Part shown: piece after piece, positions 7,656 through 31,835 of the stretch
How the letters are laid out: each line of letters begins with the position of its first letter
Position numbering within the stretch: position 1 is the first letter of the stretch
Source of the DNA: an uncultured Pleomorphomonas sp.
GTDB taxonomy: Bacteria > Pseudomonadota > Alphaproteobacteria > Rhizobiales > Pleomorphomonadaceae
Assembly: GCA_937868725.1 (NCBI GenBank)
Contig: CALMMQ010000093.1
Span: forward strand, 1 to 36,107
Direction of reading: 5' to 3'
Length of the DNA: 36,107 bases
Notes under the pieces: model-generated
Told to the model about the DNA's origin: nothing
The model's input: only the letters and a program-made list of their open reading frames with translations
The model's database searches: none
Position numbers and translations under genes: made by a program

Positions 7656-7663
7656 TTGCGCCA

Positions 7664-7679: not shown

Positions 7680-8029
7680 CAGAACAATTCCGCACAAATT
7701 TGCGGCAGGCCGACGGTGCGAATGATGACTGTCGTTGCCGCCAGCGCGCTGCCGCCTGACGGCACCATCCGGCCCAAACCCCGGCATGACACTGAATTCG
7801 TTTCCGAATCCGGAAGTATCGCCTCTGTCGCAGGGATTGAATCGCCAGCCGGAACCAACCCCAGACAGGTCCGACGGTAACAGCGGCAAGAGACCGGTTT
7901 CCACTTGGTCAAAAAGCGCCCTGAAAGCGAATAGATCATGCCCACAACTTGAGCAGCCCGCGCCTTGACGGGGTCGGATCCGCCGCCTTACGCTCGCCTC
8001 GACATAGGCACTTGGGCCAAGAGCAATCG
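7680..8029 (+). other. non-coding leader before the ANTAR-type operon
   Basis: About 350 bp without a supportable gene. It contains a GAATTCG-TTTC-CGAATCC imperfect hairpin (7794-7811) and a small GCCT/AGGC stem with a six-base loop (7996-8009). The canonical pair of ANTAR hexaloops (A at loop position 1, G at 4) was not found. An open frame starting at 7965 joins the AmiC-like gene, but its first 46 codons look like translated leader and do not fit the family. Confidence 0.4.
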
Positions 8030-8074
8030 AGCTTCGTTGCCGCCAATCCGGCGGAGCGGAGCTTTTTCTTTTTT
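8030..8074 (+). terminator. strong intrinsic terminator in the leader, candidate ANTAR antitermination target
   Basis: The left arm 8030-8044 pairs with 8050-8063 over 14 pairs (two of them G-T) with one bulged G and a five-base loop. It is followed at once by TTTTTCTTTTTT (8063-8074). This is a textbook rho-independent terminator, but it lies just 29 bases before the AmiC-like start codon and ends no gene. AmiR-type ANTAR proteins are known to prevent termination in leader RNAs, and such a protein is encoded by the second gene of this operon. Confidence 0.8.
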
Positions 8075-8102
8075 AAGAGCGCAGGGATCTCGGATCATCG
8101 GC

Positions 8103-9266: not shown

Positions 9267-9883
9267 TGGTCGCTCTTCCCGCCCAATGGCCCCCGGTGCA
9301 TCTCATGAACTGGCACGCCGTGGTGCTGCATCCGGCGCACACGGTGGCCGACGCCGTGGTGGCGCAGCTGGAACGGCTGGGACTGACGGTCAGCCGCCGC
9401 TGGCCCGCTCTCGAGCCCGCCGACGCCGAGGCCGACGTGGTGCTGTTCGACGCCGACATGGGCCACGACGGCCAGTTTCCCTGGCCGGCCGGACAGGCGC
9501 CGATGCCGCTGGTGGCGCTGATCGGCTCGGAAGCGCCGGGCCGCATCGGCTGGGCCCTGACCCAGGGCGCCGATACCCATCTGCTGAAACCGATCCATTC
9601 GTCCGGCGTGTTCAGCGCCCTGCTGATCGCCAGCCACGCCTTCGAGGCCAAGCGCCGCGCCGAAGCCGAGGTCCGAGACCTGCGTGAGCGCCTGACCCGG
9701 CGGCAGGCCGTGGTGCGGGCGACGCTGCTGCTGATGCAGATCAACGGCACCAGCGAGCCGCTGGCCAGCCGGCAGTTGCGCAGCCTCGCCATGGAACAGC
9801 GCAAGACCATCGAAGACATGGCCGAAGCGATCATCGCCAACCCCGGCCGCTATGGCGCCGAACGCCGCCGCCTCAGCCAGTGA
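9266..9883 (+). CDS. AmiR-like ANTAR-domain transcription antiterminator
   Basis: This 205-residue protein has an N-terminal pseudo-receiver domain (about residues 15-125), a linking helix and a C-terminal ANTAR RNA-binding domain (about residues 145-200, with [16 protein letters not shown] and [20 protein letters not shown]). The receiver domain shows no clear phosphorylation site, as in AmiR, which is controlled by binding AmiC instead. It is translationally coupled to the AmiC-like gene (TGATG overlap). Known ANTAR proteins bind paired hexaloop hairpins in nascent RNA and stop terminator formation. The strong terminator at 8030-8074 is the natural candidate target, so the operon would control itself. 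Confidence 0.85.
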
Positions 9884-9927
9884 TGCCCGCCTTCCGACAC
9901 CGTCCGCAACCGATGGAGACAACCGTG

Positions 9928-10821
9928 ATGACCGCCGAGGGCCTCGCCCCCTTCCGTGACTACAAGACCTGGTACCGCATCACCGGCGACCTCAAGTCGG
10001 GCAAGCCGCCGCTGTTCGTGCTGCACGGCGGCCCCGGCTGCACCCACGACTACGTCGACAGCTACAAGCTGGTGGCCGACAGCGGTCGCGCCGTCATCCA
10101 CTACGACCAGATCGGCAACGGCAAGTCGACGCACCTGCCCGACAAGGGCGGCGACTTCTGGACGCCAGAGTTCTTCGTCGCCGAACTGGAAAACCTCATC
10201 GACCACCTCGGCGTGCGCCCGGCCTATCACGTGCTCGGCCAGTCGTGGGGCGGCATGCTCGGCGCCGAGTTCGCCGTGCGCCGGCCGGCCGGCCTCAAGG
10301 GCCTCGTCATCGCCAACTCGCCGGCCGAGATGAAGACCTGGATCAGCGAAGCCTACCGGCTGCGCACGGAACTGCCGGCCGAGGTGCAGGCGACGCTGCT
10401 GCGCCACGAAACCGCCGGCACCACCGCCGATCCCGCCTACGTCGCGGCCGAACAGGTGTTCAACCAGCGCCACGTCTGCCGCGTCGTTCCGATGCCGCCG
10501 GAGGTCCAGCGCACCTTCGACTGCATCGCCGACGATCCGACCGTCTACCACACCATGAACGGTCCCAATGAGTTCTACGTCGTCGGCACCATGAAGGACT
10601 GGACGATCGTCGACCGCCTGCCGGCGATCAACGTGCCGACGCTGCTGATTTCCGGCTTCTACGACGAAGCCACGCCGGCCACGGTCCAGCCGTACATGGA
10701 CAAGATCCAGGATGTCCGCTGGATCAAGTTCCCGCATTCGAGCCACATGCCGCACGTCGAGGAGAAGGCCGCCTGCATCAAGGCCACCGCCGACTTCCTC
10801 GACGCCGTCGACGCCCGCTGA
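9928..10821 (+). CDS. proline iminopeptidase-family alpha/beta hydrolase (S33), possible L-amino acid amidase
   Basis: This 297-residue alpha/beta hydrolase belongs to the S33 family, which removes N-terminal residues from short peptides or hydrolyses amino-acid amides. HGGPG (residues 33-37) forms the oxyanion hole. GQSWGG places the nucleophile at Ser106; Asp246 (GFYDE) and His273 (SSHMPH) complete the likely triad. The reading frame is open from 9880, but GGAG at 9914-9917 is well placed for the ATG at 9928, or the GTG at 9925. In the classical ami operon this position holds an aliphatic amidase; here an S33 hydrolase takes its place next to a peptide importer. The substrate is not deducible. 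Confidence 0.82.
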
Positions 10822-10861
10822 TTTCGCCAACTCCGCCGCAACCTCAGGAGTTTTCACCAGC

Positions 10862-12541
10862 ATGTCTTCACGCTCCCTCCGCCTCGGAACGACGGCTCTT
10901 GCCGGTCTCATCCTCGCCTCCACCGGCGCCGCTTCGGCCGCTGACCGCGCCGCCGACATGGCCGCCCATCGCGGCGGCACCATGCGCCTGGTCGCCAGTG
11001 CCGCCGGCGGCACCATCGACCCGATGATCAACTACACGTCGCAGTATTGGCAGATCTACCAGTCGATCTACGACGGCCTGCTGGCCTTCAAGCACACCAG
11101 CGGCGCGGCCGCCTTCGAGATCGTGCCGGATCTGGCCGAGGCGCTGCCGGTCGCCAGCAACGACGGCAAGACGCTGACCTTCAAGCTGCGCCAGGGCATC
11201 AAGTTCTCCAACGGCCAGCCGTTGACCACCAAGGACGTCGTCGCTTCCTTCGAGCGCATCTTCAAGGTGTCGAGCCCGACTTCGGGCACCTTCTACGCCG
11301 GCATCGTCGGTGCCGACGCCTGCCTCAAGGCGCCGGCCGACTGTTCGCTCAAAGAGGGCGTCATCGGCGACGAAGCGACCGGCACGGTGACCATCAATCT
11401 GGTGGCGGCCGATCCGGAATTCTTCTTCAAGCTCGCCGTGCCGCACGCCGTCATCCTGCCGGCCGATGCGCCGGCCAAGGACGTTGGTACCGAGCCGATT
11501 GCCGGCACCGGCGCCTACAAGGTCGCCGCCTACGACCCCAACACCCAGCTCAAGCTGGTGCGCAATCCCGAGTTCAAGGAATGGAGCGTCGACGCCCAGC
11601 CGGACGGCTTCGTCGACGAGGTGCACTACGACTTCGGCCTGACCGAGGAAGCGGGCATCACCGCCATCCAGAACGGCCAGGCCGACTGGCTGTTCGATCC
11701 GCCGCCGGCCGACCGTCTCACCGAGCTCGGCTCCAAGTACCAGAACCAGGTGCACATCAACAAGCTGATGGCCTACTGGTACGCGCCGATGAACACCAAC
11801 CTGGCGCCGTTCAATGACGTGCGCGTGCGTCAGGCGCTCAACTACGCCATCGACCGCGATGCCATCGTCGGCCTGTTCGGGGGCACGGCGCTGGCCGACC
11901 CGACCTGCCAGATCCTGCCGCCGAGCTTCCCTGGCTACAAGCCGTTCTGCAGCTACACCGCCGACCCGGGCGAAGCCTGGAGCGCGCCCGATCTCGACAA
12001 GGCCAAGGAACTGGTCAAGGCGTCCGGCACCGCCGGCCAGAAGGTGACCATCATCACCGAGGACACCGCCGTCTCCAAGGCCATCGGCACCTATCTGCAG
12101 AGCGTGCTGACCGACCTCGGCTACGAGGCCGCCGTCAAGCCGATCTCGACCAACATCCAGTTCACCTACATCCAGAACACCAACAACAACGTCCAGCTGT
12201 CGATCAGCCAGTGGTATCAGGACTATCCGGCCGCTTCCGACTTCCTGAACGTGCTGCTGTCGTGCGCCTCGTTCACGCCGGGTTCGGATGCGTCGATCAA
12301 CATCTCGGGCTACTGCAACAAGGACCTCGACGCCAAGATGCAGGCGGCACTGAAGCTGGCCAACACCGATCAGGCGGCCGCCAACGCCGAATGGTCGAAG
12401 ATCGACGCCGCCTTCATGGCCGAAGCGCCGGTGGCGCCGCTGTTCAATCCCAAGCGCGTCGACTTCGTGTCGGCCCGCCTCGGCGGCTACACCTTCTCGA
12501 GCTCGTTCCAGTGGCTGTTCGCCAACGCCTGGGTCAAGTGA
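10862..12541 (+). CDS. ABC transporter substrate-binding protein, family 5 (peptide/dipeptide type)
   Basis: This 559-residue periplasmic binding protein is the receptor of the ABC importer encoded by the following genes. The N-terminus is a clear Sec signal: positive MSSRSLRLG, a hydrophobic core and an ASA-A cleavage site near residue 27. The mature part has the SBP_bac_5 pattern, including KLRQGIKFSNGQPLTTKDVV and VRQALNYAIDRDAIVGLF. AGGAG precedes the ATG. The family binds di- and oligopeptides, opines, nickel or glutathione. The S33 hydrolase next door favours peptides or amino-acid amides. Confidence 0.9.
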   Translation: MSSRSLRLGTTALAGLILASTGAASAADRAADMAAHRGGTMRLVASAAGGTIDPMINYTSQYWQIYQSIYDGLLAFKHTSGAAAFEIVPDLAEALPVASNDGKTLTFKLRQGIKFSNGQPLTTKDVVASFERIFKVSSPTSGTFYAGIVGADACLKAPADCSLKEGVIGDEATGTVTINLVAADPEFFFKLAVPHAVILPADAPAKDVGTEPIAGTGAYKVAAYDPNTQLKLVRNPEFKEWSVDAQPDGFVDEVHYDFGLTEEAGITAIQNGQADWLFDPPPADRLTELGSKYQNQVHINKLMAYWYAPMNTNLAPFNDVRVRQALNYAIDRDAIVGLFGGTALADPTCQILPPSFPGYKPFCSYTADPGEAWSAPDLDKAKELVKASGTAGQKVTIITEDTAVSKAIGTYLQSVLTDLGYEAAVKPISTNIQFTYIQNTNNNVQLSISQWYQDYPAASDFLNVLLSCASFTPGSDASINISGYCNKDLDAKMQAALKLANTDQAAANAEWSKIDAAFMAEAPVAPLFNPKRVDFVSARLGGYTFSSSFQWLFANAWVK

Positions 12542-16780: not shown

Positions 16781-18529
16781 CTAGAACAGCGCGTCGTCGA
16801 GCAGGCTGTCGGCGGCGGCGGCCGTCGGGGCCGGCGCCGTCTCGGACGGCAGGCCGACGGCCAGCACCCGCCGGTGCACGTCGCGCTCGCCGGCCATGGT
16901 ATAGAGGTGATAGAGGCGGCCGGAGAAGTCGGCGAAGGCCGGGTCGGTGGCCGGCGCCCCGGTCAGGGCGGCGGCGCTGCCGAACAGCACGCGGCATTCA
17001 TCGAGCAGATCGCCGAGACCGTGGCGGAAATCGAGTTCGGCGGCGATGCGGCCGATGCGTTCGGCGGCGGCGTTGCCATTGCGCGCCGTCTCGGCGATGG
17101 CGCGGTCGGTGCGGCCGGACGCCTCACGCAAGGTCAGCATGGCGCCGTCGAGCTCGCTGACGAGGTCGACCGTGTCCGCTTGGCTGGCAATTTCGGCAGC
17201 CGTTTTATCCATGGCCGATAGACAACCCAGAATTCCCTCCGCCGCCACGCCCAGCCGCGTGGCGTAGGTGTTCATCTCGGCGGCGACGACGCCAACCGCC
17301 CGCCCCTTGTCGCCAAGGCGGTTGGAGCGCAGATAGGCGTTGATGGCCAGGCAACGGATGTCGTCGCGGACGTTGCGCAGGTTGCCGATGTTGCCCATGT
17401 TGTTGAGCAGTTCGGTGGCGACGCGTTTGGTGGCGGCGTAGGCCTCGTTGGCCAGCCGGCTCGCCGCCGCCACCTCGCTTACCAGGCCACGGGCCTCGCC
17501 GACGCCGGTCTCGATGGCCTTCAGCGTCTGGCCGCAGTCGCCCGTCGCCCGTCCGGACAGGTCGAGAATGCGGCGAGCGTCTTCGGAAAAGCCGTCGATG
17601 GTGGCGACGATCGTTCTGGTCTCGCTGACGAAATCCTGCATCAGCGCCGCCGTCTGGGCGGCCAGGACCTTGTGGCCGACAGCCTTCAGCGCCGCGGCCG
17701 CGGCCGGCTCGGCGCAGGCGGCCAACAGTTCCTGCAGCGTGGCAATGCCGGTCTGAACGTGTTCGATGCGCTGGCGCGTCATGTCGCCGATCTGCAGTGC
17801 CGCCAGCACCGTCGCCACCTTGGCCTGCACCGCCCTGGCCGCCTTGCTGGCGGCACTGGCAAGGCGGGCGAGGTCGCCGTGATGGCGGCGGACCGCTTGC
17901 AGCGCGCCGTGCAGCGTCGAAAACAGCGACGGCATTTCGTCCGTGACACCGGCGCCACCGGCGTTGCGGGCGATGGCGATCTGGCCGTTCAACTCGTTGA
18001 CGCGGCCGGAGAAGACGTTGACCTGCTCGACAGCCGAGGCGACGTATTTGGCGACGTCGTCGGCGAAGGTGACGAACTCCGGCACGCCGGCGCCGGCGAT
18101 GCGCGTCTCCACGGCACAGGTGGCGAGGTAGCGCAGCGAGCCCTGCATGTCGCGGATGCGCGGGCCGATGGCTTCGCCGTCGGCCAGAATGGTAGCGAGA
18201 CGGGCGCGCGCCGCGTCCTCGGCCTTGGCCAGCGCCGCCAGCCCGGACAGCGTCGCCTCGACCCGGGCAGAGGCGGCTTCGCAGGCATTGTCGTCGAGCG
18301 AACCCACGACACCGTCGAGGGCGTCGAGCAGGTGACCGACGATGTCGTGGGCGGCCATCAGCGCGGTGCCGCCGGCCAGAAAGCGCTCTTCGATCAGCGA
18401 TCGCGCCGCTTCCAGACGCTCGGCGATGATGCCAAGATCGGTTCGACAGGCGTTGTCGGCCAGCATGGCGTTGAACGGATCGGCAGCGAACGGCGTGCGA
18501 TCAATTCCGTGCAGGGGCGTTTGGTCCAT
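16781..18529 (-). CDS. soluble MCP-like alpha-helical protein (degenerate methyl-accepting signalling domain)
   Basis: This 582-residue protein is almost entirely Ala-rich helix with no membrane segment or signal peptide. Around residues 390-427 the sequence LAINAYLRSNRLGDKGRAVG followed by VVAAEMNTYATRLG closely parallels the tip of chemoreceptor signalling domains (NAAIEAARAGE-GRGFAVVA-EVR). The Glu and Arg residues expected for CheA/CheW contact are partly replaced. Earlier parts (IGDMTRQRIEHVQTGI) resemble helical bundles of cytoplasmic chemoreceptors. The ATG at 18529 has AGG upstream; the frame extends 22 codons further without family support. No che genes are nearby. Its function is unknown: a cytoplasmic receptor or a structural coiled-coil are both possible. 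Confidence 0.7.
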   Translation of the reverse strand: MDQTPLHGIDRTPFAADPFNAMLADNACRTDLGIIAERLEAARSLIEERFLAGGTALMAAHDIVGHLLDALDGVVGSLDDNACEAASARVEATLSGLAALAKAEDAARARLATILADGEAIGPRIRDMQGSLRYLATCAVETRIAGAGVPEFVTFADDVAKYVASAVEQVNVFSGRVNELNGQIAIARNAGGAGVTDEMPSLFSTLHGALQAVRRHHGDLARLASAASKAARAVQAKVATVLAALQIGDMTRQRIEHVQTGIATLQELLAACAEPAAAAALKAVGHKVLAAQTAALMQDFVSETRTIVATIDGFSEDARRILDLSGRATGDCGQTLKAIETGVGEARGLVSEVAAASRLANEAYAATKRVATELLNNMGNIGNLRNVRDDIRCLAINAYLRSNRLGDKGRAVGVVAAEMNTYATRLGVAAEGILGCLSAMDKTAAEIASQADTVDLVSELDGAMLTLREASGRTDRAIAETARNGNAAAERIGRIAAELDFRHGLGDLLDECRVLFGSAAALTGAPATDPAFADFSGRLYHLYTMAGERDVHRRVLAVGLPSETAPAPTAAAADSLLDDALF

Positions 18530-18726
18530 GCGTACAAACCTGGCGAGCCCTTTCCCCCCTCTGCCACAGCCGATGGCAGAGCGGTGACCGGGCATCGACG
18601 CACCCGGTCAGGCGGTCCGAAACATTTGCCGGCACCGCTTGCGCGTCAGTGATCCCATAAAATGATAAACTATCGGTGCACGACTAGTTAGGTATTGTGG
18701 CGGCCGATCCCCTGTTCCGACGCCTT

Positions 18727-19473: not shown

Positions 19474-22400
19474 GTGACATCGATATCGGCAACGAAGTCG
19501 ATCTACAGCTCCTACACGGTGACCCAGATCACCAATCTCTCGTCGGCTGAAATCGAGTCGATGAGCACGACGGACATTGCCGCCCTGTCGACCAACCAGC
19601 TGTCGGCCATGTCGACCGACCAGGTCGCCGCCTTCACCATTTCGCAACTGACCTTCAGCGCCGCCCAGCTGTCGGTGTTCAGTGCCGAGCAGATCGAGGC
19701 CTTCTCGCCGACCGAGATCGCAGCCCTGTCGACAACGCAGATCCGCGCCCTGACGGCGACCGAACTGACCGGCCTCACCGACGAGCAGTTTGCGGCGCTG
19801 ACCGAGACGCAGATCGCCGCGCTGATGCCGGCCCAGGTCAAGGTGCTGACCACGACGCAAGTGGCCTCGCTCGCCAGCACTCAGCTCGCCGCCCTGACGG
19901 CGTCGCAGATCGGTGTGATGACGACGACGCAGATCGGCGCCCTCACCAGCGACGAGATGAGCGCGCTCGCCACGACGCAGATTGCCGCCCTGCCGCGCAC
20001 GTCGGTGGCCTCGCTCAGCGAAACGCAGATCGACGCCCTCGACGCCACCCAGCTCGGCGCCCTGACCTCGGCCCAGATCAGCTCGCTCACCACGACGCAG
20101 ATCGGTTACCTCAGCGACGACGACATCGACGCCTTCTCGGCCACCCAGCTCAAGGGTCTCACCTCGGCGCAGGCCGCCGCGCTCAGCAGTACCTCGCTGC
20201 TCGGCCTGACGGCGACGCAGCTGGCAGGGCTGTCGGCCAACGTCATCGCCTCGCTGTCAACGACGGTGATCGCCGGCCTCGACGCGAACCAGGTGGCAGC
20301 GCTCAGCACCAGCCAGATCAAGGCGCTCAAGGTGGCGCAGGTCGACGCTTTCGACACGACGCAGATCGGCGCCCTGACCACGACGCAGCTGGCGGCCATG
20401 TCGTCGACGCAGATCGCCTCGCTGTCGACCGACCAGTTCGCCAGCCTGTCGGCAACCCAGATCGCCAGCCTGTCGGCGGCTTCGATCTACGCCCTGGCGA
20501 CGACCCAGGTCGAAGTGCTCAACGAGACGCAGATCGCGGCCTTGACCAACACGCAGGTCGCCTCGCTGACCCGCACGGCGCTCGCCACGCTGTCGTCGAG
20601 CCAGATCACGGCCTTTTCGGCGACCCAGATCGCCCGCCTGACGTCGACGGCGCTGGCCGGCCTCGACCAGAGCCAGGTCGACGCGCTGACCGACGCCCAG
20701 GTGGCGACGATGTCGGTCACCCAGATCGCCGGCCTGACGACGACCGGACTGTCCGGCTTGTCGACGACCGACATCGCCGCGCTCACCACCACGCAGTTGC
20801 GCGGTCTGTCATCGACCGACATCGGCAATCTCGCCGACACCCAGTTCGCGGCGCTGACGACGACGCAGATCGCCGCGCTGACCTCGACCCAGGTCAAGGG
20901 GCTGACCGAGGACGAGCTGCTGTCGCTCGACACCACCCACCTCGCCGCCCTGACCAGCACGGCCTGCGCCGGCCTCACTTCGGGCCAGTTGGCGCGCCTG
21001 TCGACGACGCAGATCGCCAGCCTCTCGACGACGCAGATCGACGGGCTGACCTATCTGTCGCTGTCCTCGCTGTCCGGCGATCAGATCGCCGCCCTCGGCA
21101 CCGACCAGCTGGCATCGCTGAGCACGACGCAGGTCAAGGGGCTGACCAAGAGCGAGATGGCGGCGCTGACCACCACGCAGTTGACGGCGCTGACCTCGAC
21201 GCAGTTCGCGGCGCTGACCTCGACCGCCGTTTCGGGCCTCACCACCGAACAGGCCGCCGCGCTGTCCCTCGACCAACTGCGGGCGCTGACCTCGACCAAC
21301 ATCGCCGCCCTGTCGATCGACGCCGCCGGCGCGCTGACCGTTACGGCACTGGCCAGCCTGTCGACCACCCAGGTGGCGGCGCTGACCTCGACCAACATCG
21401 CCACTCTCGACACGACGCAGTTCAATGCCCTGACGACGACGCAGCTGGCCGTGCTGACCTCGACCCAGGTGAAGGGTCTCAGCGAAGCCGAACTCGACAC
21501 GCTCACCACCACGCGCCTCGGCGTGCTGACCTCGACGGCGCTGGCCGGGCTGACGGCGACGCAGATCAGCGAACTCGACGTGACGCAGGTGGCGGGCCTG
21601 ACGGTCACCCAGATCAAGGGTCTGGCGGCGACGGCCTTCAACGCCCTGTCGTCGACCCAGATCGGCGCCCTGCAGACGACGCAGATCGCCGCGCTGCAGC
21701 TTGAGCAGGTGCGGCGGATGACCGGCACGCAGGTGGCGCTGCTGTCGACCGAACAGCTCGATGCCATGTCGCGGTCGCAGCTCGGAGCCATTTCGTGGAC
21801 GGCGGTGGCGGCGATGACGACGACGCAGATCGCCTCGCTCGACGACACGCAGCTGTCGGCGCTGACGGCGACGCAGGTCGGCTACCTCGCCGACACGCAG
21901 CTGGCCGTGCTGACGACGTCGCAGATGGCCCGCCTCACCGTCACCCAGCTGCGGGCGCTGACGACGACGCAGATCGGCGAGCTGGTGTCGACACAGCTCG
22001 ACGCCTTGACCTCGACGCAGATGAGTTCGCTGACCTCGACCCAGATCAAGGGCCTCAGCGAAGAGCAGTTGTCGGACATGACGACGACGCGCATCCAGCA
22101 GTTGACGTCGGCCCAGCTGGCGGGGTTGACCCAGACGCAGATCGCCAAGCTGTCCGAAGACCAGATGGCGGCGCTGTCGATCACCCAGATGCGCGGCCTC
22201 ACCTATACCCAGATGGCCGCCCTCAGCGCCCTGCAGGTGGCGGCGCTGTCGTCGACGCAGCTGTCGGCGCTGTCGACCACCCAGGTCAAGGGACTCAACG
22301 CCAGTAATATAAGTGGCCTCGATCAGACCGACATCGCCGCGCTGGCGACGACCCAGGTCGCCGCCCTGGCCGGCGGCGCCGTCGCCGCCCTGGCCGACAC

Positions 22401-25400
22401 GCAGATCGCCGCCTTCACCACGCGTCAGCTGACCTCGCTCAGCACCACGGCCATGAGCGCGCTCACCGCCACTTCGCTCGATGCGCTGTCCGAGGACGAA
22501 CTGGCGCTGTTCACCTCGAACCAGGTCCGGGCGCTGACCACCACCGCCATCGCCTCGCTCGACACGACCCAGCTCAACGCCCTCGACACGACGCAGATCT
22601 CGCGCCTGACGGTGGCACAGGTCGCCGCGCTCGCCGACACCCAGATCGCCTCGCTGACCAGCAGCCAGTTCGCGGCCCTGACGGCGACCGAGTTCACGGC
22701 GCTGACCACGACGCAGCTCGGCGCGCTCACCGGCGATCAGATCAGCGGCCTGACGACGACGCAGTTGCGCGGCCTGACGGCCACCAACATCAGCGCCCTC
22801 AGCAACACCCAGCTCACCGCCCTCAGCACGACCCAGATGGCGGCGCTGACCACCACCCAGATCAAGGGCCTCGACGCCGACGCCGTGGCGGCGCTGTCGA
22901 CCACCCAGTTCGCCGCCCTCAACGAAACGCAGATGGCGGCGCTGACGGCGACGGCGGCGGCGGCGCTCAACGATACCCAGCTGGCCGCCTTCGCCACGAC
23001 GCAGGTGGCGGCGCTGTCGACCACCGCCATCAATGCCCTGACGCCCGACGTCATCGATGCCCTGTCGACGACCGACTTCGCGGCCATGTCGACGACGCAG
23101 ATCCGCGCCTTCGGTACCAGCGCCGTCGCCGCCCTCAGCACGACGCAGTTCGCCGCCCTGTCGACGGCGCAACTGGCGGCCCTGACCACGACGCAGGTGG
23201 CCGCCCTCGACGACGACCAGATCTCGGAGCTCACCGGCACGCGGCTTTCCGCCCTGACCTCGACGCAGCTGGCCGGTCTGACCACCGACCAGATCGAGGT
23301 GCTGACCACCGACCAGATCGCCGCCCTGACCACGACGCAATGGCGCGGCCTCAAGGGCACCGAGGTGGCGGCGCTGTCGACGGCCCAGATCGCCGCCCTC
23401 ACCACGGCCCAGATCGACGCCATGAGCCCGTCGCAGGTGGCCGGCTTCCTGCAGACGCAGATCGCCGCCCTGTCGACCAGCCAGATCGGCGCCCTCACCA
23501 CCACCTCGATCACCGCCCTGAGCTCGACGGCGGCCGCCGGCCTCACCGTCACCCAGATCGCCGCCATGAGCACGACGCAGCTGGCCGCGCTGACGTCGAA
23601 GAGCATCGCCGCCCTCTCCACCGATACCCTGACCGGCCTCGGCACCGACATCATCGCCGCCCTGACGACGGCGCAGATCAAAGGGCTCTCCGTCACGGCG
23701 CTGGCCAGCCTCGACACGACGCAGATCGCGGCGCTGTCGACCAGCCAGGTCGCCGCCTTCACCGAGACCCAGATCGCCAGCCTGACCAACGCCCAGATCG
23801 ACGCGCTCGCCGACACCCAGGCCGCCGCCTTGACGTCGACGCAGATCGGCGCCCTCGACACAACGCAGATCGTGGCGCTCGATGCCACCGAACTCGCCCG
23901 CCTCACCACCTCGCAGCTCAAGGGACTGGTCGCCTCGGAAGTGGCCGCCCTGTCGACGACGCAACTGGCGACGATCAGCGCCACCCAGCTCGCCGCCCTG
24001 ACCACCACGGCGCTGAGCGGCCTCAACCAGACCGACCTCGGCACGCTCACGGCGACGCAGTTCGCCGCCCTCGGCACGACGCAGATCGCCGCCCTCACCA
24101 CCACGGCGCTAGGCGGCCTGACGGCCGACGGCATCGCCGCCCTTGCCACCACCCAGATCGCGGCCCTGACGGCGACGCAGATCGGCAGCCTCGCCGATAC
24201 CCAGATCGCGCAGCTCTCCACCGATCAGGTGGCGGCGCTGACCCGGCTCGAGGTGGCGGGCCTCACTTCGACGCAGATCGCCGCCCTCACCACCAGCCAG
24301 TTGGCCGTACTGTCGGCGACGCAGATGGCGGCCCTGTCGGCAGCGGCGGTGAGCGGCTTCACCTCGACGCAGCTCAACGCCCTGACGACGACCCAGTTCG
24401 GCGCCCTGACCGCCACCGAGCTTGGCGCCATGACGACGACGCAGCTCGGTTCGATGACGGCGACGCAGATCGCTTCGCTGACCACGACGCAGCTGCGCGG
24501 CCTGACGCCGACCGAGATCGGCGCCCTCAGCACGTCGCAGCTGGCCGGGCTGTCGACCCGCCAGGTGTCGGCGCTGACGACGACGCAGCTGACCGGCCTC
24601 ACCGCCGACCAGATGGCCGGCCTCTCGGCCGACCAGTTCAATGCCCTGAGCGCCACCCAGGTGCAGGCGATCAGCACCAGCGCGCTTGCCAACATCGCCA
24701 GCACGGCCATCGACGACCTGCCGACGACGCTCTTGGCGGCGCTGTCATCGACGCAGTTCGCGAGCCTCACCGAAACTCAGATCGCCGCCCTGACCACCAG
24801 TCAGCTCGCCGCCCTCACCGCCACCGAACTCGCCGGCATGACGGCGACGCAGCTTGGGGCGCTCACCGCCACCGGGCTCGGCGCGCTGGCCACCTCGCAG
24901 GTGGCGGCGTTGACCTCGTCGGCAGTCACCGGCCTCACCGCCACGGAAATGGCGGCGCTCAAGGCGACGCAGCTTGCCGCCCTCACCACCACGGCGCTTG
25001 CCGGGCTGACCGACACCCAGATTGCCGCGCTGGCGACGACCCAGCTCGCCGCGCTGACGACGACGCAGTTCTCGGCCTTGAGCACGGCGGCCATTTCCGG
25101 CCTCACCGCCACCGAACTGCAGTCGCTGGCCAGCACCCAGCTCGCCAACATGACGGCGACGCAGATCGGGGCGCTGTCGGCGACGCAGGCGGCGGCGCTC
25201 ACCACCTCCCAGTTCGGCGCCCTGACGGCGACGGCCATCGCCGGCCTGACCTCGACGGCCGTGTCGGCGCTGTCAGTCAGCCAGATCGACAGCCTGACCA
25301 CGACGCAGGTCGCGGCGCTGTCGGCGACGGCGATCTCCGGCCTGACGCGTACCGAAATTGCCGCCATGTCGCAGGACCAGCTGGCGGCGCTGTCGACCAC

Positions 25401-28400
25401 CCAGATCGCCGGCCTTACCGAAACCCAGATTGCCAGCCTCGACACCAGCCAGATCGCCGGCATGAACACGACGCAGTTGCGGGCGCTGATCTCGGCGGCC
25501 ATCGCCGGTCTGTCGGTCACGGCCATCGCGGCGCTGTCGTCGACCCAGGTGGGCAGCCTGACGGCGACGCAGATCGCCGCCTTCGCCAGCACGCAGATCG
25601 CCGCGCTCACCGCCGACCAGATCGGCAATCTGTCGACGACGGCCATCGCCAGCCTGTCGTCGAGCCAGCTCGGCGCCCTCACCACCACCCAGACGGCAGC
25701 GCTGACCACCACCCAACTCGCCGCCCTTTCGGCCACCGCCGCCAGCGGCCTGACCACCGCCGACCTGCAGACGCTGACCACCACCCAGCTCGCCGCCCTG
25801 ACGTCGACGGCGCTCGGCAGCCTTACTACCAGCCAGATCGCCGGCCTCACCACCGGCCAGATCGCGGCGCTGTCCACCACCCAGGTCAAGGGTCTGACGG
25901 CCACCGAACTCGGCGCGCTGACGGCGGCGCAGGTCGACGCCCTCGCCGCCACCCAGCTGGCCGCCCTCGCCGCGACACAGGTGGCCGGCTTCACCTCGAC
26001 CCAGACGGCGGCGCTCGACGCCACGCAGATCGCCGCGCTGACCAAGCCGCAGGTCGCCGCCCTCGGCGCCGATGCGCTGTCCGGCCTCTCCACCACCCAG
26101 ATCGCCGCGCTCACCACGACGCAGGCGAGCGCGCTGACCGCCACGCAGATCGCCGGTCTCGCCACGCGCCAGGTGGCGGCACTGTCGCAGACCCAGATCG
26201 GCGTCCTCAACTCGACGCAGGTCGCCGCCCTGACCAGCAGCCAGATCGGCGCGCTCACGGCCACCCAGATCGCCGGCCTCGCCACGACGCAGATCGCCGC
26301 CATCGATGCGGCCGCCGTCGCCGGCCTCACCGCCACGGAGATCGCGGCGCTGGCCAGCAGCCAGCTCGCCGCCCTGACGGCGACGCAGTTCGCCGGCTTC
26401 ACGTCGGCGCAGGTGACGGCGCTTTCGACCGCCCAGATCGGCAATCTGACGACGACGCAGCTGAGCGCGCTCAGTGCCAGTGGCCTCGACGGCCTGACGA
26501 CGACCGAGATCGCTGCCCTGTCGACGACACAGCTGACGGCGCTGACGGCGACGCAAATCGCCTCGCTCGACGAAACGCAGATTTCCTCGCTCGCCACCGC
26601 CCAGATCGCCGCGCTGACGACGGCGCAGATCTCCGGCCTGACGGCGACGCAGCTCGGCGCGGTGACGGCGACGCAGTTCTCCTCACTGACCACCACCCAG
26701 CTCAGCGCCCTCACCAGCACCGCCTTCTCCGGCCTGACGACCACCCAGATCGCCAGTCTCGACGGCAACCAGATCGCCGCCCTCACCACCACGGAACTGT
26801 CGGCACTCAAGACAACGCAGGCGACGACGCTGTCGGCCGATCAACTGGCGGCGCTCAACACGACGCAGCTGCGGGCGCTGACCCGCGCCGCCATCGGCAG
26901 CCTGACGACCACCCAGCTCGCCAGCCTCGACGGCACCGACTTCGCCGCTCTGACGACGACGCAGATGTCGGGCCTCGCCGACACGCAGGTCGCCAACCTG
27001 ACGACCACCCAGCTGGCGGCACTGACCACCGACCAGATCGGCGCTCTCAGCACGTCCGCCCTCAACGGCCTGACGGCCAGCCAGCTCGCCGGTCTCGCCT
27101 CGACGCAGGTCAACGCCCTGACGGCGACACAGCTCGTCTCGCTCGACGATACCCAGATCGCCGCCCTGACGGCGGCCCAGGTCTCCGCGCTCTCCACCAC
27201 CACCGTCGCCGGGCTCGGTACGACGCAGGTGGCGGCGCTGACCACGACGCAGTTGGCGAACCTGTCGTCGACGCAGATCGCCGCCCTTTCCACCACGGCG
27301 GTACACGGGCTGACGGCGACGCAGATCGCCGCCCTCTCCACCGGCCAGCTCGGCGCGCTGACGGCCACCGAGATCGGCGCTTTCACCTCGACCCAGGTCG
27401 GGGCGCTGTCGACAACCCAGATCGCCACGCTGTCGACGACGCAGATCACCGGCCTTGCCTCGAGCGGGCTGGCGGCGCTGACCACGGCGCAGGTGGCGGC
27501 ACTGACCACGGCGCAGGTCGGGGCCTTGACCACCACGGCGCTGGCCGGTCTCAACAACAGCCAGGCCGCGGCGCTCAACACGACGCAGCTGGCCACCCTG
27601 TCGACGACGCAGCTGTCGGCGCTGTCGACCAGCGGCATCGCCGGCCTCACCGCCAGCCAGATCGACGCGCTGACCAGCCGGCAGCTGTCGTCGTTGACCA
27701 GCGCCCAGATCGGCGCTCTGACCACGACGCAGATCGGCAGCCTCGACAGCACCCAGATCGCCACCTTGACGGTGACCGAAATCGCCGGTCTCGCCTCGAC
27801 GCAGGTGGCGAGCCTTGCCGACACGCAGATCGACGCGCTGGCGACGACGCAGATCGCCGCCCTGTCGACGGCCGCCGTTACCGGCCTCACCACCACCGAG
27901 ATCAACGGCTTCGAGACGACGCAGCTCGGCGCCCTCAGTTCGACGCAGCTCGGCGCCCTGACGACGACGCAGGTGGCCGGCCTCTCCACCGGTTCCGTCG
28001 CCGCGCTGACCACGACGCAGATGAGCGGCCTCGGCGCCGCGGCCATCGGTTCGCTGACCACGGCGCAGGTGGCGGCGCTGTCGACCCGCCAGGTGGCGTC
28101 GCTGACGACGTCGGCGCTGGCCGGCCTCAATGCGACCCAGCTCGCCGCCTTCGCCGATACCCAGCTCGCCGCGCTTTCCAATACCCAGCTCGCCGCCCTG
28201 TCGACGGCGGCCGTCAAGGGCCTCACCACCACGAGCTTCGCCGCCCTGTCGACGGCCCAGCTCAAGAGCCTGACGACGACGCAGATCGGCGCTCTTACCA
28301 CCACGCAGGTGGCCGGCCTGACGACGACTGAGCTCAATACGCTGACGGCCACCGAGGTTACCGGGCTCGCCGCCACTGGCGTTGCCGCCCTCACCGCCAC

Positions 28401-29682
28401 GCAGCTGTCGTCGCTGGCGACGACGCAGATCGCCGCCTTGTCGGCCACCGGTCTCAGCGGGCTCACCGCCACGCAGCTGGCCGCCTTCACCACCACCCAG
28501 CTTGGCGCCCTGTCGACGGCCCAGATCGCGGCGCTGTCGACGACGGCCATCGCCGGCCTGACCCAGACCGAACTCGCCGCGCTGACCACCACTCAGTTCA
28601 AGAGTCTCGCCACGACGCAGGTGGCGGCCTTCACCACGGCCCAGATCGCCGCCCTGACGACGACGCAGATCAACCTGCTGACGGCGGCCGAAATGGGTGG
28701 CTTCACCTCGACGCAGGTGGCGGCGTTGTCGTCGACCCAGCTCAACACGCTGACCGCCACCCAGGTCGCCGCCCTGTCGACCACCGGCGTCGCCGGCCTG
28801 ACGGCGGCGCAGGTCGCCGCGCTCACCACCACTCAGATCGCCGCGCTCACCGCCACCGAGATGGGGGCGCTGACCTCAACGGCGGTGGCCGCGCTGTCGG
28901 GCGACCAGTTCGCGGCGCTGTCGACGGCCCAGTTCTCGGGCCTGTCAGCCACCGGCATGACCGGCCTGTCGACGACCCAGATCGCCAATCTGACGACGAC
29001 GCAGATCAACCTGCTGACCTCGACCGAACTGTCCGGTCTCACCGCCACGCAGGTGGCGGCGCTGTCGGTGACGCAGCTGTCGGCGCTGAGCGCCAGCGAC
29101 GTGGCGTCGCTGTCGGCCACCGGCATCACCGGCTTCACCGGCACGCAGATCGACGCCCTGACCGTGACGCAGATCGGCGGCCTTACCACGACGCAGATCG
29201 GCGCGCTCACCACCACCGAACTCGGCTATCTCGACACCACGGACATCCAGGCGATGACGGCCGAACAACTGGCCGGTCTCGTCCGCGTGCAGTTGCGCTC
29301 GCTGTCGGCCAGCCAGATGGACGCGCTGACCACGACGCAGATCGCCGGCATGAGCGGCACCCAGATCGGCTCGCTGACCGTGACGCAGATGAACGAACTC
29401 GAACAGACGCAGATGGCGGCGATCAGCACCACCCAGTTCGCCGCGGTGACCGCCACCCAACTCGACAACCTGACCACCACCGAAGCCTCCTACCTCAGCG
29501 GCGAGCAGATCGCCTCGATCAACACCACCACCATGTCGCTGCTCGGCACCACCTTCCTGTCGACGCTGAGCATCGCCCAGCTCGACGCGCTCAACGGCAC
29601 GCAGATCGACGAACTGACGACGACGCAGATCGCCGCTCTCAGCACCGAACGCCAGGCCGCGCTGCTCAAGGCCGCCGCCTGA
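19474..29682 (+). CDS. giant octapeptide-repeat protein, 3402 residues, function unknown
   Basis: I do not recognise a named family. After 21 residues (MTSISATKSIYSSYTVTQITN) the chain is octapeptides to the end, consensus L-[T/S]-T-T-Q-[I/V/L]-A-[A/G], closing with LLKAAA. About one residue in three is Thr or Ser. Cys, Trp and His are almost absent, and charges are few. No signal peptide, membrane segment or catalytic motif is visible. Position 2 prefers Ser, Thr, Asp or Asn, position 3 is sometimes Pro, and position 5 is Gln, Glu or Asp. That is a helix-capping pattern, so I infer a solenoid of very short helices. The start is GTG: an in-frame TGA lies five codons before it, and AAGGG upstream is a modest ribosome-binding site. 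No terminator separates it from the GT41 gene 146 bases downstream. It could be a surface or structural protein, or secreted by an unrecognised route. Confidence 0.85.
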   Translation: MTSISATKSIYSSYTVTQITNLSSAEIESMSTTDIAALSTNQLSAMSTDQVAAFTISQLTFSAAQLSVFSAEQIEAFSPTEIAALSTTQIRALTATELTGLTDEQFAALTETQIAALMPAQVKVLTTTQVASLASTQLAALTASQIGVMTTTQIGALTSDEMSALATTQIAALPRTSVASLSETQIDALDATQLGALTSAQISSLTTTQIGYLSDDDIDAFSATQLKGLTSAQAAALSSTSLLGLTATQLAGLSANVIASLSTTVIAGLDANQVAALSTSQIKALKVAQVDAFDTTQIGALTTTQLAAMSSTQIASLSTDQFASLSATQIASLSAASIYALATTQVEVLNETQIAALTNTQVASLTRTALATLSSSQITAFSATQIARLTSTALAGLDQSQVDALTDAQVATMSVTQIAGLTTTGLSGLSTTDIAALTTTQLRGLSSTDIGNLADTQFAALTTTQIAALTSTQVKGLTEDELLSLDTTHLAALTSTACAGLTSGQLARLSTTQIASLSTTQIDGLTYLSLSSLSGDQIAALGTDQLASLSTTQVKGLTKSEMAALTTTQLTALTSTQFAALTSTAVSGLTTEQAAALSLDQLRALTSTNIAALSIDAAGALTVTALASLSTTQVAALTSTNIATLDTTQFNALTTTQLAVLTSTQVKGLSEAELDTLTTTRLGVLTSTALAGLTATQISELDVTQVAGLTVTQIKGLAATAFNALSSTQIGALQTTQIAALQLEQVRRMTGTQVALLSTEQLDAMSRSQLGAISWTAVAAMTTTQIASLDDTQLSALTATQVGYLADTQLAVLTTSQMARLTVTQLRALTTTQIGELVSTQLDALTSTQMSSLTSTQIKGLSEEQLSDMTTTRIQQLTSAQLAGLTQTQIAKLSEDQMAALSITQMRGLTYTQMAALSALQVAALSSTQLSALSTTQVKGLNASNISGLDQTDIAALATTQVAALAGGAVAALADTQIAAFTTRQLTSLSTTAMSALTATSLDALSEDELALFTSNQVRALTTTAIASLDTTQLNALDTTQISRLTVAQVAALADTQIASLTSSQFAALTATEFTALTTTQLGALTGDQISGLTTTQLRGLTATNISALSNTQLTALSTTQMAALTTTQIKGLDADAVAALSTTQFAALNETQMAALTATAAAALNDTQLAAFATTQVAALSTTAINALTPDVIDALSTTDFAAMSTTQIRAFGTSAVAALSTTQFAALSTAQLAALTTTQVAALDDDQISELTGTRLSALTSTQLAGLTTDQIEVLTTDQIAALTTTQWRGLKGTEVAALSTAQIAALTTAQIDAMSPSQVAGFLQTQIAALSTSQIGALTTTSITALSSTAAAGLTVTQIAAMSTTQLAALTSKSIAALSTDTLTGLGTDIIAALTTAQIKGLSVTALASLDTTQIAALSTSQVAAFTETQIASLTNAQIDALADTQAAALTSTQIGALDTTQIVALDATELARLTTSQLKGLVASEVAALSTTQLATISATQLAALTTTALSGLNQTDLGTLTATQFAALGTTQIAALTTTALGGLTADGIAALATTQIAALTATQIGSLADTQIAQLSTDQVAALTRLEVAGLTSTQIAALTTSQLAVLSATQMAALSAAAVSGFTSTQLNALTTTQFGALTATELGAMTTTQLGSMTATQIASLTTTQLRGLTPTEIGALSTSQLAGLSTRQVSALTTTQLTGLTADQMAGLSADQFNALSATQVQAISTSALANIASTAIDDLPTTLLAALSSTQFASLTETQIAALTTSQLAALTATELAGMTATQLGALTATGLGALATSQVAALTSSAVTGLTATEMAALKATQLAALTTTALAGLTDTQIAALATTQLAALTTTQFSALSTAAISGLTATELQSLASTQLANMTATQIGALSATQAAALTTSQFGALTATAIAGLTSTAVSALSVSQIDSLTTTQVAALSATAISGLTRTEIAAMSQDQLAALSTTQIAGLTETQIASLDTSQIAGMNTTQLRALISAAIAGLSVTAIAALSSTQVGSLTATQIAAFASTQIAALTADQIGNLSTTAIASLSSSQLGALTTTQTAALTTTQLAALSATAASGLTTADLQTLTTTQLAALTSTALGSLTTSQIAGLTTGQIAALSTTQVKGLTATELGALTAAQVDALAATQLAALAATQVAGFTSTQTAALDATQIAALTKPQVAALGADALSGLSTTQIAALTTTQASALTATQIAGLATRQVAALSQTQIGVLNSTQVAALTSSQIGALTATQIAGLATTQIAAIDAAAVAGLTATEIAALASSQLAALTATQFAGFTSAQVTALSTAQIGNLTTTQLSALSASGLDGLTTTEIAALSTTQLTALTATQIASLDETQISSLATAQIAALTTAQISGLTATQLGAVTATQFSSLTTTQLSALTSTAFSGLTTTQIASLDGNQIAALTTTELSALKTTQATTLSADQLAALNTTQLRALTRAAIGSLTTTQLASLDGTDFAALTTTQMSGLADTQVANLTTTQLAALTTDQIGALSTSALNGLTASQLAGLASTQVNALTATQLVSLDDTQIAALTAAQVSALSTTTVAGLGTTQVAALTTTQLANLSSTQIAALSTTAVHGLTATQIAALSTGQLGALTATEIGAFTSTQVGALSTTQIATLSTTQITGLASSGLAALTTAQVAALTTAQVGALTTTALAGLNNSQAAALNTTQLATLSTTQLSALSTSGIAGLTASQIDALTSRQLSSLTSAQIGALTTTQIGSLDSTQIATLTVTEIAGLASTQVASLADTQIDALATTQIAALSTAAVTGLTTTEINGFETTQLGALSSTQLGALTTTQVAGLSTGSVAALTTTQMSGLGAAAIGSLTTAQVAALSTRQVASLTTSALAGLNATQLAAFADTQLAALSNTQLAALSTAAVKGLTTTSFAALSTAQLKSLTTTQIGALTTTQVAGLTTTELNTLTATEVTGLAATGVAALTATQLSSLATTQIAALSATGLSGLTATQLAAFTTTQLGALSTAQIAALSTTAIAGLTQTELAALTTTQFKSLATTQVAAFTTAQIAALTTTQINLLTAAEMGGFTSTQVAALSSTQLNTLTATQVAALSTTGVAGLTAAQVAALTTTQIAALTATEMGALTSTAVAALSGDQFAALSTAQFSGLSATGMTGLSTTQIANLTTTQINLLTSTELSGLTATQVAALSVTQLSALSASDVASLSATGITGFTGTQIDALTVTQIGGLTTTQIGALTTTELGYLDTTDIQAMTAEQLAGLVRVQLRSLSASQMDALTTTQIAGMSGTQIGSLTVTQMNELEQTQMAAISTTQFAAVTATQLDNLTTTEASYLSGEQIASINTTTMSLLGTTFLSTLSIAQLDALNGTQIDELTTTQIAALSTERQAALLKAAA
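19537..29661 (+). repeat. about 422 tandem 24-bp (8-codon) repeats
   Basis: Parsing the protein by hand in eights from residue 22 gives 422 units. Only one is irregular: FTISQLT (residues 54-60) has seven residues. From residue 61 to 3396 there are 417 consecutive octads with no insertion or deletion, and the count closes exactly on the protein length. At DNA level the units are far less alike, since the same octad is written with different codons (for example CTGACGACGACGCAG and CTCACCACCACCCAG). Confidence 0.95.
20782..29277 (+). repeat. 576-bp (24-octad, 192-residue) super-repeat within the octad array
   Basis: Units ending in Gly before the next Leu recur at intervals of 4, 6, 4 and 10 octads. 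Six Lys/Arg-Gly units start at 21598, 22174, 22750, 23326, 23902 and 24478, exactly 576 bases apart. Numbering octads from residue 22, all 21 predicted positions from octad 286 to 406 end in Gly. Between octads 53 and 283, 28 of 40 do, in a different phase. The phase changes near 26302-26374. These are hand counts. Confidence 0.8.
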
Positions 29683-29828
29683 GCCGGGGGATAGCGGGAC
29701 GATCGGGAAACGCACGGGAAACCGGAGCGTTGGCCAAAGGGCGAATTTCAGCCCAAGCCTCCGACGGGACTTGAAGTTCCGCCGCCATGACTGTTGTCTC
29801 TCGGGAGCCAACACTTGAGGTGATTCCC

Positions 29829-31835
29829 ATGGCCAGCGACGAGGCATCCACCTCCCCCTTTTCGACCAGCGACCAGCGGCTCGGCATTCTCGACCTCATC
29901 CGCGTCGCCGACACGCTGAAGCGGGCTGGCGAGAACGCCGCCGCCGAAGCGCTCTATTCGGGCTGGATCCAGTCGCATCCCAACGATCCGCTGCTCTACG
30001 CGGTGATGTTCAACTATGCCGTCATGCTGACCGACTCCGGTTCGCTCGACGCCGCCCGCCAGTGTTTCGAGAAGTCGATCGAGCTCAATGCCGATTTCAT
30101 GCCGGCCTACATCAATCTCGGCCGCGTCTTTGAACGCATGGGCGCCGCCGGTCAGGGCATCCTGCGCTGGTCGGCCGGCATCGAGCGGCTGCAGCAGGTG
30201 AACGGGGCGGCCATCGGCTTCAAGACAACGTTGCTCAATCAGATGGGCCGGACGCTCGAAGCCTCCGGTCAGGATGCCGCCGCCGAGGACACGCTGCGCC
30301 AGAGCCTCGACATCGATCCGGCGCAGGGCGAAGTGGCCCAGCACCTGCTGGCGCTGCGCCAGCGCCAGTGCGAGTGGCCGATCGTCACGCCGAGCGAGCG
30401 CGTCAGCCGGGCACAGTTGATGAAGGGCCTGTCCCCCCTGTCGATGGGCGCCTATACCGACGATCCGATGCTGCAGCTCGCCGCCTCCTGGGCCTACAAC
30501 AAGCACGACGTCGGCCTGCCGCCGACCGTCATCTCGGACTGGCCGGCCGCCTTTGCTGCCAAGGGGCCGATCCGCATCGGTTATCTGTCGTCCGATCTCA
30601 GGGAGCACGCCGTCGGCCACCTGATGGCCGAGGTGCTGGGCCTGCACGACCGCTCGGCCGTGGAAGTGTTCGCCTACTATTGCGGTATCCCGGCCAACGA
30701 CGCCATGAACCGCTCGTTCAAGGCTCAGACCGACCACTGGATCGACGTGTCGACCATGGACGACGAGACGGCGGCGCGGCGGATGGTCGAGGACGGCATC
30801 CAGATTCTCGTCGACGTCAACGGCTATACCCGCGAGGGGCGGACCAAGCTCCTGGCCCGCCGGCCGGCACCGGTGATCGTCAACTGGCTGGGCTATCCCG
30901 GCACCATGGCCAGCCCCTATCATCACTACGTCGTCGCCGACGACTGGATCATTCCGCCCGAGCTGGAGCGCTTCTATTCGGAGAAGGTGCTCAACCTGCC
31001 GTGCTATCAGCCGACCAACCGCCAGCGCGTGGTCGATCCCGCCACGCCGACCCGCGCTGATGCCGGCCTGCCGGACGACGCCATCGTCTATTGCTGCTTC
31101 AACGGCACGCACAAGATCACCCGTTTCACCTTCGAGCGCTGGCTCGCCATCCTCGCTCAGGTACCGGGCAGCGTGCTGTGGCTGCTGAGTGGCGGCGAGG
31201 CCACCGACAACCGCCTGCGGGCCCACGCCGAGAGCAAGGGCATCGCCGGCGACCGCATCGTCTTCGCCGGCAAGAAGCCCAACGCCGCCCATCTGGCGCG
31301 CTACGTGCTGGCCGACCTGTTCCTCGACACCACGCCCTACGGCGCCCACACCACCTGTTCGGACGCGCTGTGGATGGGCGTGCCGGTGCTGACGTTCTCC
31401 GGCCGGTCGTTCGCCTCGCGCGTCTGCGGCAGCCTGGTCCGCTCGGCCGGTCTGCCGGAACTGGTGACGACGCAGGCCGACGACTTCATCGCCAAGGCGG
31501 TGGCGCTCGGCAAGGCGCCAGACGAACTCAAGGCGCTGCGAGCCCGGCTCGCGGCCGGCCGCGACACCTGCGTGCTGTTCGACACGCCGCTCTTGGTGAA
31601 GCGCCTCGAAGGACTTTACGCCGAGATGTGGCAGGCGGCGCTCACCGGCACCTTGCCGCAACCCGACCTCAGGAACCTGCAGGACTATTTCGAGGTCGGC
31701 ATCGAGATCGACCACGAGTTGGCCGAGGTGCAACTGGTCGACGACTACGCCGGCTGGTGGCGCGGCGCGCTGGCCCGCCGCCACGCCGCCCGCGCCATCC
31801 CGCCCGACGAGCGGCTGTGGCCTGGGGCCGGCTGA
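29829..31835 (+). CDS. TPR-containing O-GlcNAc transferase-like glycosyltransferase (GT41, SPINDLY/OGT type)
   Basis: This 668-residue protein has TPR-like helices in its first 170 residues (AEALYSGWIQSHPNDPLLYA and ARQCFEKSIELNADFMPAYI) and a two-lobed OGT-type GT-B domain from about residue 235. Family blocks are clear: GYLSSDLREHAVGHLM, ILVDVNGYTREGR with NWLGYPGT, YCCFNGTHKITRFTFERW (Lys429 is the expected nucleotide contact) and DTTPYGAHTTCSDALWMGVP. It has no signal peptide. Known relatives attach sugars to Ser/Thr or Asn of proteins, and FlmG of Caulobacter modifies flagellin. The start at 29829 follows GAGGTG; an ATG at 29787 has a poorer site. Placed directly after the Thr/Ser-rich giant and before a terminator, it is a strong candidate for that protein's modifier. 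This is inference. Confidence 0.88.
   Translation: MASDEASTSPFSTSDQRLGILDLIRVADTLKRAGENAAAEALYSGWIQSHPNDPLLYAVMFNYAVMLTDSGSLDAARQCFEKSIELNADFMPAYINLGRVFERMGAAGQGILRWSAGIERLQQVNGAAIGFKTTLLNQMGRTLEASGQDAAAEDTLRQSLDIDPAQGEVAQHLLALRQRQCEWPIVTPSERVSRAQLMKGLSPLSMGAYTDDPMLQLAASWAYNKHDVGLPPTVISDWPAAFAAKGPIRIGYLSSDLREHAVGHLMAEVLGLHDRSAVEVFAYYCGIPANDAMNRSFKAQTDHWIDVSTMDDETAARRMVEDGIQILVDVNGYTREGRTKLLARRPAPVIVNWLGYPGTMASPYHHYVVADDWIIPPELERFYSEKVLNLPCYQPTNRQRVVDPATPTRADAGLPDDAIVYCCFNGTHKITRFTFERWLAILAQVPGSVLWLLSGGEATDNRLRAHAESKGIAGDRIVFAGKKPNAAHLARYVLADLFLDTTPYGAHTTCSDALWMGVPVLTFSGRSFASRVCGSLVRSAGLPELVTTQADDFIAKAVALGKAPDELKALRARLAAGRDTCVLFDTPLLVKRLEGLYAEMWQAALTGTLPQPDLRNLQDYFEVGIEIDHELAEVQLVDDYAGWWRGALARRHAARAIPPDERLWPGAG

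Follow-up and report, generated by a model that had tools for sequence, protein, structure and literature searches.

A giant ALTTAQ octad-repeat protein and its adjacent GT41 glycosyltransferase from a Pleomorphomonas genome: a candidate enzyme-substrate pair

Bacterial OGT/SPINDLY-like enzymes are widespread, and to our knowledge their natural substrates are largely unassigned. FlmG of Caulobacter is a cytoplasmic O-glycosyltransferase of the TPR-GT type that acts on flagellins; its TPR domain binds the substrate and the modification can precede secretion, as given in the available part of the source (PMC7591256). HMW1C is the dedicated glycosyltransferase of the HMW1 adhesin, a large exoprotein, and the available text (PMC3012730) has the term 'GT41' 14 times. 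The OGT of Thermobaculum is a bacterial TPR-GT41 enzyme for which in vitro activity was not detected, according to the part of the source at hand (PMC4683255). As for the repeat, it is already known by name, as PF20080 (ALTTAQ_rpt), and as a solved chain of the same octads, PDB 9zem_A 'HeliScrew4' (120 aa), whose name suggests a designed protein. Neither record shows a function, and that of PF20080 gives the repeat name with neither a partner enzyme nor a super-period.

The window analysed here, a stretch of 36,107 nucleotides from an uncultured Pleomorphomonas sp., encodes a giant protein of this octad family followed by a GT41 glycosyltransferase. By analogy, the pair would work like FlmG/flagellin and HMW1C/HMW1, while being a member of neither system. 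As in the FlmG system, a TPR-GT enzyme would serve a single family of exported proteins, but the FlmG substrate is a flagellin and its sugar pseudaminic acid, and 'GT41' is not used in the available text (PMC7591256), whereas here the candidate substrate is a repeat giant. HMW1C differs by N-glycosylation and two-partner secretion (PMC3012730, part available), whereas the HMW1C-type N-glucosyltransferase model of NCBIfam, NF049992 (cut-off 1000 bits), gave the window GT41 27.3 bits. The Thermobaculum enzyme has the same bacterial TPR-GT41 architecture as the window protein, and the available part of PMC4683255 names no natural substrate for it. In the literature search, which covered titles and abstract openings with subscription papers and bioRxiv outside its scope, nothing was recognised on an octad-GT41 pair; mentions of PF20080, judged from the listing, look unrelated. 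What is new here is the GT41 partner with its separate clades, and a hidden super-period of 24/7 octads.

The octad protein (3402 aa; ORF, translation and Pfam) is encoded at 19474-29682 on the plus strand, with a GTG start and zero internal stops. Parsing by dynamic programming with a PSSM derived from the protein itself yielded 422 octads, the earliest at residue 15, in the register T-T-T-Q-I-A-A-L, compared with 70 units in the shuffled protein. The commonest residues in T1-T2-T3-Q4-I5-A6-A7-L8 are T/S, T/A/S, T, Q, I/L/V, A, A/G and L. A 14-residue N-terminal leader (19474-19515, +) precedes octads 1-5 (19516-19635, +), which are followed by a lone 7-residue unit (19636-19656, +; step 47 to 62), then by 417 octads without a slip up to residue 3397 (19657-29664, +), in which the super-period runs, and by a C-terminal tail of 5 residues (29665-29679, +). 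These counts agree exactly with the 3402 residues, 422 octads and 417 uninterrupted units given in an earlier note on this DNA. Among the 417 units, 384 are distinct as peptides and 416 as DNA, and because nearly all differ the array is old and not a product of fresh slippage. Two long antisense ORFs of 1051 and 669 aa (20809-23964 and 24801-26810, both on the minus strand) lie opposite the array and are probably a side effect of its 24-base, GC-rich repeat. Elsewhere in the window, a 604-aa protein (16781-18595, -) had no Pfam match at E 1e-5; by eye it looks helical and chemoreceptor-like.

PF20080 matched the octad protein in 120 stretches with E=0 and 1363.7 bits (cut-off 26.4), and 9zem_A aligned with a 111-residue stretch of it over 109 residues in octad register (E=8.9e-18), so that the view of the earlier note that no named family applies has to be given up. 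The chain of 9zem differs from the window protein by its shortness and by octads that are mostly LTPEQIAA-like against LTTTQIAA. The NCBIfam scan gave no match near any cut-off. Pfam and NCBIfam together returned the repeat, plus matches taken as low-complexity, and no globular domain, which agrees with that part of the first reading. Matches to LRR, CAAP1 and sigma-70 or sigma-factor entries (Pfam, NCBIfam, phmmer) were read as effects of leucine spacing or low complexity.

An orthologue from the same genus (G007) aligned over 3402 of 3402 residues with zero gaps at 63.6% identity. Between the two proteins, octads of equal index have 5.10 of 8 residues in common and octads of unequal index 3.11; the individual octads have thus evolved separately, without homogenisation of the array. 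The two genes gave a dN of 0.291 and a dS of 0.765, the latter approximate because GC3 is 94%, with dN falling to 0.067 at Q4 and 0.115 at L8. The octad protein is real, conserved, old and under purifying selection. PF20080 was found in 3 of the 60 genomes searched, namely the window's own, G007 and one of another genus of the same family (G014); at E 1e-6 it matched 6/385 genomes of the class and 21/398 of the phylum, at least two of the genome matches (L110, L124) being chance matches.

The number of units was equal in 13 of 32 hand-chosen pairs of relatives and different in 19. It is kept at 422/422 at 64% identity, at 310 in three Asticcacaulis (310/310 at 56%), at 350 in three Solidesulfovibrio (55-73% identity), at 306 in three Caulobacter (74-75%) and at 340 in four Magnetospirillum-like arrays, one of them with compensating one-unit gaps, as well as in three near-identical pairs. 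It is not constant within genera, with 342 beside 350 units in Solidesulfovibrio, 331 beside 306 in Caulobacter and a range of 625-766 in Pseudomonas. The idea of a fixed unit number per clade was dropped on account of the unequal pairs, some of which lie inside one genus.

Structure prediction, proposed earlier as a check, was carried out with AlphaFold2 on 24 octads of the window protein, supplied together with 72 further segments taken from this protein and its relatives. The predicted model (pLDDT 97.9, pTM 0.88) contains 24 helices of 5-6 residues, one per octad, and zero strands. Predicted alone, the N-terminal 200 residues reached a pLDDT of 90.2, the values being lower around the 7-residue unit. 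A Foldseek search of the model against the PDB (to April 2026) returned 0 matches at E <= 0.001, the best being mesothelin with a TM of 0.41; 9zem was absent among the best 50 matches listed, and its likeness to the window protein is at the sequence level. A viral fold search gave three matches at E <= 0.001, with TM <= 0.40.

When the self-similarity of octads is averaged across the arrays, the maxima fall at lags 24, 48, 10, 34, 14, 17, 38, 58 and 7, which are near-multiples of 24/7 octads. Of 79 arrays, 58 have their strongest spectral period at 3.39-3.48 octads and 10 at about 2.0; another 10, at 2.41-2.48, lie near the second harmonic after folding, and a single array has 3.0. At the frequency 7/24, which was picked after the first spectra and tested mostly on those very arrays, 74 of 77 arrays beat all 200 shuffles of unit order, the exceptions being L051, L080 and L082. 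Gap lengths between orthologous arrays were not counted toward the turn, as the aligner favours in-phase gaps, and use was made instead of recent duplications inside the arrays (80 residues at 90% identity), present in 23/99 arrays. The shortest duplicated blocks are mostly close to whole turns of 27.43 residues: 56, 80, 136, 192 (six arrays), 248, 384 (three) and 496 aa (two). The Rayleigh R of this fit is 0.869, a value that none of 5000 randomly drawn sets of multiples of eight reached, several of the arrays being close kin; blocks of 32, 48, 216 and 608 aa fit less well. Lag peaks, the 7/24 test and duplication sizes together give a superhelical turn of about 27.4 residues (24/7 octads), by which the 422 octads would make about 123 turns and, assuming a layer spacing of ~1 nm, a rod of roughly 0.12 µm.

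The predicted fold, the super-period and the gap-free orthologue uphold the continuous solenoid with a kept register that had been read from the window. The accompanying statement that one slipped residue would break packing was too strong, as the 7-residue unit near the N-terminus is common to the window protein and its two nearest orthologues and some relatives have many slips. In addition, the shortest duplicated blocks of four arrays (138, 190, 492 and 493 aa; L047, L070, L091, L121) preserve the 27.4-residue turn and not the octad. The arrays L070 and L078 lose the octad register periodically, after every 7 or 3 units, which looks like a reset once in two turns or once per turn.

The gene next door, which went unmentioned in the earlier note, lies 104 bp downstream of the octad ORF on the same strand (29787-31835, +). 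It encodes an OGT/SPINDLY-like glycosyltransferase of 682 aa with N-terminal TPRs and a Glyco_transf_41 domain (PF13844, E=1.4e-82, 278.1 bits, cut-off 25), which places it in GT41; from an alignment of the three nearest proteins, in which M15 is invariant, the true start may be 29829. At the level of regions, its catalytic part aligns with Xanthomonas OGT (profile positions 106-593) and, in two blocks, with human OGT.

The linkage was followed in relative loci, collected by a contig scan with the three orthologues; the 79 retained are the best-scoring of 325 confirmed candidates, so that close kin and Thr-rich octads are favoured. With an HMM built from the three nearest GT41 proteins (threshold >100 bits), GT41 was found in 60/79 loci, from several phyla, and in 52/79 it is immediately downstream (same strand, <400 bp). 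The fetched flanks of the other 19 gave no GT41; the sequence of one locus, L108, stops 2 bases past the array. The array ends exactly 5 residues past the last octad in 35 of the 52 with an immediate GT41 versus 5/27 others, and a step of 14 or 15 residues, similar to the one at the 7-residue unit of the window protein, follows unit 8 or 9 in 22/52 (hand count). Short leaders such as SISSY or SISSL open many relative arrays.

Family-based PF20080 searches supplied 20 further stretches, of which 17 gave a main array (L117 is an array-less flank, and L110 and L124 are the chance matches), and GT41 was within the stretch in 5/17. The genomes of seven arrays of family f231 hold GT41 genes; in 4/7 a GT41 domain lies ~3-11 kb from the array, beyond the stretch, and for the other three no GT41 was listed close by on the same contig. 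No GT41 was found near the arrays L109, L112, L114, L122 and L123. One frame near an octad array (G528:C92:27095-35212) encodes 3781 aa with several tandem GT41 domains, and similar multi-GT41 frames occur in other f231-family genomes. GT41 genes are otherwise rare: a hand count over 25 genomes, including 8 picked because they had an array or PF20080 match, came to about 21 frames. Within the window's genus, 2/14 genomes have both genes and 12/14 neither, and among other family members 3/6 carry GT41 without an array. The array-adjacent GT41 is the sole one in G000, G007 and G014. The last of these, from a sister genus, has kept array and GT41, and the other 18 window genes searched were absent from its fetched flanks.

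A GT41 tree of 87 rows (quick search without bootstraps, midpoint-rooted, some long branches) placed 68/73 array-linked enzymes in two clades, one of 53 rows (44 immediate, 9 near, where near means anywhere in the fetched locus) and one of 15 rows, with an SH-aLRT of 99 each. Five of the 73 (L070, L078, L082, L091, L103) and all 14 unlinked GT41s fall outside both clades. GT41s from Verrucomicrobiota, Desulfovibrionaceae and a Myxococcota-labelled MAG nest among alphaproteobacterial ones, as expected if array and GT41 move between phyla as a pair. These data suggest that the octad array travels between bacteria with its own GT41 gene, of whose enzyme it may be the dedicated substrate. Four octad loci were found in IMG/VR, and in the tree the GT41 of one of them is identical with that of genome G262; an octad protein of 163 aa (L145:8010-8498) lies on an IMG/VR viral contig. 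An annotated phage collection gave no match for one 192-aa octad segment.

The window protein has 2.44 Ser/Thr per octad. At positions 2+3, the content is 1.20 per octad in 67 linked arrays against 1.01 in 24 unlinked ones (Mann-Whitney p=0.005), with the seven f231 arrays set aside, overlapping distributions and statistics that ignore phylogeny. With the f231 arrays counted as unlinked, p was 0.013 at position 1, 0.48 (no difference) at position 2 and 0.019 at position 3. The four arrays lowest at positions 2+3 among 98 (L109, L112, L122, L123) are all unlinked, and the GT41 search of the genome of the poorest one (G790) had no match; the Pseudomonas arrays are GT41-linked yet Ser/Thr-poor at position 3. 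The difference is modest, and Ser/Thr enrichment was too weak to be retained as a proof of glycosylation.

Nucleotide-sugar dehydratase/decarboxylase/epimerase-like genes, searched with a model built from three such array neighbours, occur in 6/79 loci plus L111, L113 and L115. The plasmid NZ_CP115852.1 (L129) clusters genes for OGT, UDP-glucuronate decarboxylase, HlyD, an ABC exporter and an FkbM methyltransferase with octad ORFs; its array (7344-12431) is broken into several ORFs by frameshift or sequencing error. HlyD and an ABC exporter, sought with models built from members of the relative set itself, accompany 9/78 relative loci and 5/20 further stretches, and in L074 TolC, HlyD and PrtD all exceed the NCBI curated cut-offs. 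Among the window genes scanned or judged by translation there was no type I exporter, and in the window genome the top scores for HlyD (62 bits) and PrtD (223 bits) stay below the curated cut-offs; the PrtD test is weak, because 0/14 control genomes passed it. HlyD is present in G007 and G014. Type I export is thus unsupported in the window's own species and likely, from gene context, only for the lineages with linked type I secretion genes. Two contigs of the window's genome (C1, C2) carry ABC-transporter matches with identical scores and almost equal coordinates, which suggests duplicated contigs in the assembly.

Several beta- and gammaproteobacterial arrays (L054, L056, L065, L068, L073-L076, L080, L084, L096, L101) have a C-terminal extension of ~190-290 residues with DxDGNG-type motifs; five tested with Pfam gave no family above cut-off, three of them showing weak EF-hand matches. 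FlgE-like flagellar hook genes are seen in the fetched flanks of L043, L053, L077, L083 and L086. A flagellar link was rejected, as FlgE domains in 3/79 upstream neighbours and one downstream are too few.

These data are best read, with fair probability, as a superhelical rod that the partner GT41 would O-glycosylate. The octad protein would form a giant all-alpha solenoid with a short helix per octad and 24/7 octads (27.4 residues) per turn, in which the Ser/Thr of the first helical turn, positions 1-3 of T-T-T-Q-I-A-A-L, may be exposed. The TPRs of the GT41 could recognise this solenoid and the enzyme, encoded downstream, would O-glycosylate the octad Ser/Thr in the cytoplasm; the nucleotide-sugar genes near some arrays are supporting context. 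The outcome would be a long rod coated with sugar. Lineages in which type I secretion genes adjoin the pair would most likely then export it to the cell surface or the medium, where a surface function may be expected. On genomic context the octads are the likely substrate of the GT41, but adjacency and shared inheritance show a functional link only, and linked and unlinked arrays are hardly separated by Ser/Thr content. Instead of being the substrate, the octad protein might bind the TPRs of the GT41 as its partner, scaffold or regulator, or play such a role for the real target of the enzyme, which we consider unlikely, since hundreds of Ser/Thr per chain would be odd for a scaffold and nucleotide-sugar genes and exporters surround some arrays.

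Equally unlikely, in our view, is a rod or fibre of defined length that stays inside the cell, as a cytoskeleton-like element or a ruler, with glycosylation secondary. The often identical unit number of relatives and a window genome with no type I exporter above cut-off would suit such a rod, but most pairs are unequal, also inside Solidesulfovibrio, Caulobacter and Pseudomonas, and T1SS genes adjoin arrays in several lineages. A beta solenoid akin to leucine-rich repeats, suggested by LRR chains and one LRR model in the phmmer and Pfam output, is very improbable: LRR proteins have a beta-strand per repeat and the AlphaFold2 model has helices only, the matches track leucine spacing, and Foldseek returned no PDB chain at the threshold used. 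Least probable, at close to no chance, is an assembly artefact or untranslated repeat. The genome is a draft of 128 contigs (98.9% complete), but the gap-free orthologue comes from an independent genome, the units are distinct with likeness specific to their index, and selection is purifying; misassembly, which the earlier note had named as a possible refutation, is excluded by these, and the array is authentic.

For the glycosylated rod, we put at slightly better than even the proposal of a horizontally mobile two-gene O-glycosylation cassette, in which an OGT-like GT41 clade would be dedicated to a rod with hundreds of regular Ser/Thr acceptors. The genome context names a candidate GT41 substrate in strains that include two Caulobacter vibrioides (L047, L072), which makes the proposal directly testable, and the 24/7-octad rule yields the superhelical turn of a fold from sequence alone. 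Equal unit numbers at 55-75% identity in several genera raise the question of what sets the length of the rod. If true, bacterial OGT homologues would have in the octad proteins a family of natural substrates, and the product would be a sugar-coated rod that related species often keep at the same length, to the exact unit.
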